Below, in pieces: positions 23,270 to 25,136 of a stretch of DNA of 64,000 bases (positions are counted from its first letter, which is position 1; every line of letters begins with the position of its first letter). The position numbers and the translations under genes are program-made. The notes beneath the pieces were generated by a model. It made no database searches, was not told the origin of the DNA, and saw only the letters and a program-made list of their open reading frames with translations. The DNA is from Candidatus Zixiibacteriota bacterium (GTDB taxonomy: Bacteria; Zixibacteria; MSB-5A5; GN15; FEB-12): assembly GCA_019038695.1 (NCBI GenBank), contig JAHOYZ010000008.1, positions 1-64,000 on the forward strand, read 5' to 3'.

Positions 23270-23357
23270 ATAGGTCAAGAGCCGTGCGCTCTTGACAGAG
23301 AACAGGCGATGCCTATTAGCAGGCAATACTCAATAACAGGCAATGCCTGCCTGCTAC
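23270..23357. repeat. TAGG...GCTAC hairpin element, copy 2
   Basis: The element begins ATAGG and ends GCTAC. Its first hairpin is GTCAAGAGC/GCTCTTGAC (23274-23296, loop CGTGC); two AGGC-type palindromes follow, the last being CAGGCAATGCCTG (23337-23349). It lies between two convergent genes, and its terminal CTAC supplies the TAG stop of the DUF819 gene. Confidence 0.75.
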
Positions 23358-24529
23358 ATAACCCACTCGCACAATTGCGCCGCCAGAATCGCCGCCGGGT
23401 TGCCAATAGCATAGCCTAGCAACGCCATCAGAATCGATACCGGCACCAGCACAGGATTATGATAGGCCGCCACAATTGGAGCCGAAGCCGCTCCACCAAT
23501 GTTGGCCGCCGATGCAATTGCAGCCGTGTGGACATCGACCCGAAATATCCGTGCTGCCGCGACCAGAAAACCGCCATGTATGAAGATCCAGATGTAAGCC
23601 CCCAGCAGGAACCAGAAAACCGAAGAGTCGAGATTGGACAAATCCGCTTTCGCCCCCATTCGTGCCACGAACAGATACACGAGCGCCATTGCTAACGCAT
23701 GAGAACACGGTATCTTGCTGGCCTTTGTAAATGACAAGGCGACACCAAAAAATGTCACCAACAGAATCTTGTAAGTATTGGTTGAGAAGACAGGGGGTAA
23801 TGGCTGGATATGACCTGCGATCCATGTCGCCAAAGCAGTCACGGCAAAGCCGATGAAAATCAGGTACAGGAAGTGTCGCATAGCCGGAGTACCCTTGTCA
23901 GTAGTGAGTTCAGCGGCTGCTTTCTTGAGCGTCTCCACCCGTTCCTTGGGCATTTTCGTAAATTTGTTAAACCAGCCAGCGAAATTCTTCGAGCCCAGCA
24001 TAATCGGTAGCCAGATCAAATAGACGGCGTTATCGGCAATAACAGCGTAACCGAAATCGAGCGAACTTTCGTCAAGCCCGATAGCATTGCCGACTGCCAG
24101 CATATTACCCGTGCCACCGATCCAACTCCCGGCCAACGCCCCAAACCCTTTCCATGCCTCCGGTCCCAGTCCATGTTTCACCAGCATCAGCCCAATCGGC
24201 GCTCCAACAACCACGCCTAACGTACCCAACAACATGACAAATATGCCCTTCCCCATCACACGGATCGTGGCCATGATATCCACTTCCAGCAGCATAATGG
24301 CCAGGAACATGGGGAGCAAATTGGTGCCCATAAAATCATATACGGGTGATTTGCTGGGAATTACGCCACTGTTGGATAACGCTACCGGTATCAGGTAGAT
24401 GAAAATCAACGGCGGGAGATAGTTGAATAACTTCCACTCGGTTTTCTTTTCCAGAAAGAAAAAGAACGATGTTACTGCTGCCAGAGCGGCTATTATTCCT
24501 GAGGGGGATGAGATCAAAATGTCGGGCAT
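23354..24529 (-). CDS. DUF819 family membrane protein
   Basis: The 391-residue protein has about ten to twelve helices and the Gly-rich AGSWIGGTGNMLAVGNAIGL segment (about 135-155) and an ASAANIGGAASAPIVAAYH segment near the C-terminus. Both are typical of DUF819 (YjcL-like) transporters, related to the sodium/carboxylate-type inverted repeat fold. The substrate is unknown. No Shine-Dalgarno sequence is obvious before the ATG. The gene ends inside a repeat element and faces the DUF1573 gene. Confidence 0.85.
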   Translation of the reverse strand: MPDILISSPSGIIAALAAVTSFFFFLEKKTEWKLFNYLPPLIFIYLIPVALSNSGVIPSKSPVYDFMGTNLLPMFLAIMLLEVDIMATIRVMGKGIFVMLLGTLGVVVGAPIGLMLVKHGLGPEAWKGFGALAGSWIGGTGNMLAVGNAIGLDESSLDFGYAVIADNAVYLIWLPIMLGSKNFAGWFNKFTKMPKERVETLKKAAAELTTDKGTPAMRHFLYLIFIGFAVTALATWIAGHIQPLPPVFSTNTYKILLVTFFGVALSFTKASKIPCSHALAMALVYLFVARMGAKADLSNLDSSVFWFLLGAYIWIFIHGGFLVAAARIFRVDVHTAAIASAANIGGAASAPIVAAYHNPVLVPVSILMALLGYAIGNPAAILAAQLCEWVM

Positions 24530-24608
24530 AAGCTCGCTTTCGTTTTTTTATCTTGAGGGAATGTAGTCTGTCATTGCTGTCAAAACAAGAGACATTGTCA
24601 TTGGGCAT

Positions 24609-24614: not shown

Positions 24615-24629
24615 TGCCTATATTGCATT

Positions 24630-25136
24630 ATGGTTAATCCGATCCGATTGAAAGAAGACTACATCCTGGCGAAATGCTGCACACCCACTGTCGGTGATGA
24701 TATCGTAGGTTATTACAGCTACGACAATGTACTCAAAGTCCACCGGCGAGACTGCCCCAACCTGGCCAAGGCCGAGCAGCAACGGCTGGTCAAACTGGAG
24801 TGGGACGATATTCTTGAGGAGCAAGCTCCTTTTTCTCCTGACAAGAACTACGACGATTTAGACAAGACCGATTGGGTGGTGATGCGGCACCATCGAAAGT
24901 ACGGTGTTGATTACTCCCTCCTCGTAGCCCGGAAAACAAACATCACCAAACAGGCTGCCTTTGATAGCCACAAGAAGCTGCGTGAAATGGACTTGATTGA
25001 GCGAGTCGAACCTCGGATTATTCAGTATCGTAAGGGGATCGTTGACAACAAATGGATCAAACACCGCAACCACACCTACTACGACCTGACCGAAAAAGGT
25101 AACGCCTATCTTGACTGGCACGCCAAACACACTTGA
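24630..25136 (+). CDS. RelA/SpoT-type CC (RIS/zinc-finger) domain fused to a winged helix
   Basis: The first 60 residues match the C-terminal CC domain of RelA/SpoT proteins: AKCCTPTVGDDIVGYYSYDN, then VHRRDCPNLAKAE. Cys16, Cys17, His39 and Cys42 are the usual conserved residues. There is no hydrolase, synthetase or TGS domain. Residues 80-168 look like a winged-helix DNA-binding domain of the DUF2250 type (TKQAAFDSHKKLREMDLIER, then a wing ending TYYDLTEKGNAYL). In RelA this module contacts the A-site finger of the ribosome, so the protein may sense a ligand and regulate transcription. That role is inference. This is the longest possible frame, so the start is fixed; no Shine-Dalgarno sequence precedes it. 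Confidence 0.8.
   Translation: MVNPIRLKEDYILAKCCTPTVGDDIVGYYSYDNVLKVHRRDCPNLAKAEQQRLVKLEWDDILEEQAPFSPDKNYDDLDKTDWVVMRHHRKYGVDYSLLVARKTNITKQAAFDSHKKLREMDLIERVEPRIIQYRKGIVDNKWIKHRNHTYYDLTEKGNAYLDWHAKHT

Follow-up and report, generated by a model that had tools for sequence, protein, structure and literature searches.

A RelA/SpoT-type zinc module joined to a DUF2250 winged helix forms an old protein family in Zixibacteria and Poribacteria

We analysed a 64,000-nucleotide stretch of a Candidatus Zixiibacteriota genome (contig JAHOYZ010000008.1, positions 1 to 64,000; hereafter the window) and found that the gene at 24630..25136 on the + strand, read from ATG to stop, encodes a 168-aa fusion of the RIS/CC/ZFD module of long RSH enzymes (RelA, SpoT, Rel) with a DUF2250 winged helix. 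The RIS-DUF2250 fusion is an old family. The explanation that best fits the data, and to which we give an even chance, is that the protein is a trans-acting nucleic-acid-binding regulator, PadR/MarR-like, with a repurposed RIS zinc domain. By computation, the RIS-type N-terminal fold keeps four zinc ligands and the DUF2250 winged helix bears a long, invariant basic wing. The zinc module would serve dimerisation or partner binding and would have lost RelA's way of docking on the A-site finger; the target of the recognition helix and the wing would be a nucleic acid, highly conserved and most likely DNA.

The RIS module spans residues 11-61 (24660..24812, +), with C16, C17, H38 and C42 as zinc ligands. 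In the profile search, residues 11-62 matched positions 555-607 of TIGR00691 (RelA/SpoT; E 4.1e-11), and residues 13-61 matched the RIS of B. subtilis Rel (PDB 6htq; E 2.3e-10) and that of E. coli RelA (about 6e-5). A family profile improved the latter two matches to 1.6e-11 and 1e-8, respectively. The RIS half alone had no match in Pfam, including a PF19296-type RIS model, so the RIS assignment rests on TIGR00691, the PDB sequences and the fold. The winged helix spans residues 78-168 (24861..25133, +) by profile match, model and Foldseek; residues 79-160 matched Pfam DUF2250 (PF10007; E 2e-11) with 44.3 bits against a cut-off of 24.4. The AlphaFold model of the 168-aa protein (mean pLDDT 88.8) consists of a small beta-rich domain and a winged helix, and Foldseek with this model returned MarR-type winged helices and 6htq_x among 33 matches at E <= 1e-3. 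A second model, of a Poribacterial member with its relatives, reproduced the RIS plus the winged helix, and the Poribacterial model superposed on 6htq_x over 51 columns at 1.7 A with 33% identity. The preliminary description of this gene had proposed an N-terminal RIS domain, a C-terminal winged helix, and a fusion without synthetase or hydrolase. The first is borne out by the agreement of TIGR00691, the PDB Rel/RelA sequences and Foldseek, and the second by the DUF2250 score above cut-off, the AlphaFold model and the MarR-type Foldseek matches. The third also stands, as HD, SYNTH, TGS and ACT domains were absent from the 168 aa, which leave no room for any of them. The profile search that it had suggested matched both the RIS section of TIGR00691 and DUF2250, and the structure prediction gave a RIS-type fold and a winged helix in models from two phyla.

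The fusion is neither an RSH nor a PadR/MarR member. It shares with the long RSHs the RIS sequence (E 4e-11), the CC-H-C zinc ligands and the fold, but these enzymes carry HD, SYNTH, TGS, helical and ACT domains, whereas the fusion lacks all of them and has a winged helix instead. Only positions 555-607 of the 687 in TIGR00691 were matched, at 41.9 bits against a cut-off of 499.2. The fusion scored above the DUF2250 gathering cut-off across nearly the whole profile, long wing included; Pfam describes DUF2250 as conserved in archaea, and the comparison here covers bacterial fusion members only. PadR and MarR regulators have the same fold, and the fusion has a PadR-like wing (R..YY.LT..G). However, it fell below both Pfam cut-offs (PadR, 13.9 vs. 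27; MarR_2, 12 vs. 27), its wing is longer, and it has no recognised PadR/MarR dimerisation or ligand domain. Both domains were already known; a search of profile libraries and literature gave no record of their union, and in these sources the RIS module occurred inside long RSH enzymes only. The literature search on DUF2250 returned mentions, none about function, and found nothing joining Zixibacteria with the stringent response.

A chance ORF is ruled out because full-length relatives exist in Zixibacteria and Poribacteria. Of 132 Zixibacteria genomes, about 75 encode the full-length fusion, as do about 65 of the 85 genomes of Poribacteria. Scanning 84,980 species for the conserved motifs gave 119 confirmed loci, 80 of which were listed; all 80 belong to Zixibacteria or Poribacteria by relationship, although a few records are labelled otherwise, e.g. 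Calditrichota or Ignavibacterium. Occasional members outside the two phyla are possible among the 39 other confirmed loci. The window comes from a Zixibacteria genome, and its nearest named relative is 79% identical. The tree split the Zixibacterial and Poribacterial members with full support, which fits either old vertical descent or one transfer. DUF2250 occurred in 75 Zixibacteria genomes, all but one of which carry the RIS fusion. RSH genes were found in 123 of the 132 Zixibacteria genomes, separate from the fusion gene, and the genome of the window has its own full-length, normal RSH on another contig. We rejected a phage or plasmid origin, as there was no viral relative and the phage and plasmid matches covered the RIS half only and were RSH genes where annotated; the DUF2250 half alone had no convincing match among plasmids. 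A second DUF2250 place in one Poribacterial genome (L157 in G135) has no RIS and was not accepted as a member; the readable long ORF of that region encodes a multicopper-oxidase-like protein. At another locus (L049, 5439-5946, genome G105), a member is spread over two overlapping frames, the second of which contains two TGA; this is either a broken gene or an assembly error.

The four zinc ligands were invariant in 81 of 81 family members compared, and likewise in the 31 RSHs taken from this phylum (Zixibacteria). Outside the 81-member set, the member at 5345-5887 of L070 (G084) has R in place of C42, the sole case seen with the fourth ligand replaced. P19, G27, R52 and W58 are also common to the family and the RSHs; an extra D/E-I after W58 occurs in the family RIS and is absent from the RSH RIS. 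The RSH loop T-R-G-R-G is altered in the family, where D-N or D-G is the most frequent replacement of G-R629-G. The position of E. coli R629 was Arg in 31 of 31 RSHs of the phylum vs. one of 87 family rows; the remaining rows had N, G, S, D, or K (six rows of 87), and the window protein has N33. In E. coli RelA, R629 (R619 in B. subtilis) sits 3.5-5 A from the backbone of the 23S A-site finger, and R-to-E mutants at this residue act as ribosome-binding mutants (PMC7058999). According to Loveland et al. (PMC4974054), helix 638-647 of RelA lies on the A-site finger, with the sheet on S19. The ACT/RRM domain also grips the A-site finger, sharing the contact. Given that the R629 position is lost and the zinc ligands and fold are kept, the module seems, by sequence, to have been preserved for its fold and zinc site and altered where it would face the ribosome. 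With the ribosome-gripping arginine of RelA gone, the fusion gives the impression of a regulator built on a repurposed module, not of a RelA reduced to its zinc domain. This weakens the earlier suggestion of a reader of a ribosome-related signal, as the R629 arginine is nearly absent and the ACT/RRM partner is missing; for the companion idea of a nucleotide-related signal, nothing in the analysis points to nucleotide sensing.

The winged helix carries a long basic wing (residues 127-153; 25008..25088, +), which has mostly low model confidence yet is the most conserved region of the protein. Within it, KWIKHRNHTY (residues 141-150; 25050-25079, +) was fully conserved across the family members compared, and the same holds for H88, D94, Y95, H114, R125 and Y133-R134 of the winged-helix half. 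Mean conservation was 0.81 for the wing, 0.65 for the helix core and 0.59 for the RIS. The wing was poorly ordered in the predicted models, as may be expected for a loop that settles upon binding. The best Foldseek matches were MarR-type regulators and the centromere-binding protein AspA, several as DNA complexes, and the wing alone resembles the PadR wing with a score below cut-off. DNA would be the most likely target. Still, invariance of the wing across two phyla is more than a local transcription factor usually shows, and rRNA or another universal partner would explain it equally well.

The upstream region of the window gene suggests an unusual mode of expression. A -10-like box, TATATT (24619..24624, +), ends 5 nt before the ATG. 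A -35-like hexamer, TTGTCA (24595..24600, +), lies 18 nt before this box, giving 10 of 12 consensus matches for the site, but chance alone should yield sites of this quality in the region, and among relatives the -35 was not conserved. A TATA[ACT]T box ending 5-9 nt before the start was found in 34 of 58 Zixibacterial members vs. eight of 410 control ORFs (other ORFs of >= 200 aa from the same loci), and shifted positions gave the same background (8/410). Shine-Dalgarno-like motifs preceded 4 of 58 family starts vs. 201 of 410 control ORFs. The family starts were placed by alignment and the control starts are less certain, an effect that reduces the control counts a little but is too small to account for a 30-fold difference. 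The starts of divergent DUF819 genes in the same intergenic regions had the box in one of 28 cases and a Shine-Dalgarno motif in 18 of 28, and the box preceded 2 of 17 zincin starts. The layout is not general: it is missing in Poribacteria (box in one of 23 members) and in many operon-embedded members, which start close behind an upstream gene and have no box. With the -10 box in this position, the 5' end of the mRNA should fall on or close to the start codon, which usually marks a leaderless mRNA (PMC5397173). Thus, transcription of the window gene would begin at or beside the ATG, and in many Zixibacteria the promoter would likewise give a leaderless mRNA. Leaderless mRNAs bind and can be started by 70S ribosomes; the classical example is the mRNA of the lambda cI repressor (PMC4965119). 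The fusion mRNA may be started in the same way.

An alternative is that the protein is itself a ribosome-associated factor, in which the RIS still binds near intersubunit bridge B1a, the winged helix and its invariant wing together attach to a ribosomal protein, to rRNA or to tRNA, and the whole acts as a Rel competitor, a hibernation-type factor or an A-site monitor. This is possible but doubtful. The RIS core, the zinc cluster and the A-site-finger-docking helix of RelA are retained in outline, and some members have rpoA-rplQ as neighbours, or a pseudouridine synthase gene of the rRNA type; however, such translation-gene neighbours are the exception, the contact arginine tested in RelA and the ACT/RRM domain that shares its contact are both gone, and the closest folds are DNA-binding winged helices. 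Ribosome association stays the main rival for two reasons: the wing is more conserved than a typical local regulator would call for, and the leaderless layout links the gene to 70S ribosomes. For the claim of a ribosome-reading protein, this predicted layout would be a weak and indirect link to translation.

The genomic neighbourhood bears on the target of the proposed regulator. In the window, a DUF819 membrane protein gene (23354..24529, -) is divergent from the fusion gene and has a common intergenic region with it. This arrangement recurs in the window's own family of genomes, where met-zincin and LOG-type genes lie downstream of the fusion gene, but not in deeper branches. In deeper Zixibacteria, the fusion gene follows glnA, an RNA pseudouridine synthase gene, deoB behind rpoA-rplQ, or a nitroreductase gene; the gene before it in Poribacteria is usually purD or one of DegT type. 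At L108, a terminator-like hairpin with a T tract, located after glnA, runs right up to the family gene's start codon (just before 6001). A fixed operon partner was rejected, as neighbours differ by clade. Since the neighbours change between clades, the target is not one local operon fixed throughout the family, and the lack of a constant partner indicates that the protein probably functions in trans.

The same evidence makes it unlikely that the protein controls the divergent DUF819 gene locally, as repressor or activator, and senses metal or redox state through its zinc module in the manner of ZitR/AdcR. Of the loci with sufficient upstream sequence, about 28 have the divergent DUF819 gene, and all of these belong to the window's own family or lie near it; the zinc-responsive MarR regulators ZitR and AdcR were among the Foldseek matches. 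One genome (CP070824.1; L058/L093, L032/L119) carries the fusion gene twice, both times divergent from DUF819; within the second copy, part of the stored sequence reads N. In the window's own family, the operator motif search also found a CAA-rich element common to the regions between the DUF819 and fusion genes. However, this element lies at the expected position of the DUF819 -35 box and can be part of the DUF819 promoter, and the CC-H-C cluster is a structural site in RSHs. Furthermore, the DUF819 neighbour is absent from deep Zixibacteria and all Poribacteria, and the motif search with the deep-branch set gave nothing above shuffles; no operator common to the family was found.

A direct coupling of ribosome state to gene expression, through an altered-contact RIS module, a DNA-binding winged helix and a leaderless, 70S-started mRNA, is in our estimate quite improbable. 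Least probable is a protein that binds the cell's own RSH via RIS-RIS contacts, as its antagonist or partner, and so tunes ppGpp synthesis: in E. coli RelA, C612, D637 and C638 reportedly contribute to dimerisation (PMC3153485) and the equivalents of both cysteines are kept, but the co-occurrence of fusion and RSH genes says nothing where RSH is near universal, no link between the two genes was seen, and the invariant winged helix is left unexplained.

Taken as a trans-acting regulator, the family shows the RIS as a mobile module on a nucleic-acid-binding protein, across two phyla that are little studied. The intact zinc site together with the missing contact arginine provides a natural experiment that sets the features needed for RIS folding against those for ribosome docking. 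The fusion family is also a first handle on DUF2250, and its gene-specific leaderless layout is a testable prediction on expression. If the coupling of ribosome state to gene expression were true, such a regulator would be a ppGpp-independent branch of starvation sensing in Zixibacteria and Poribacteria.
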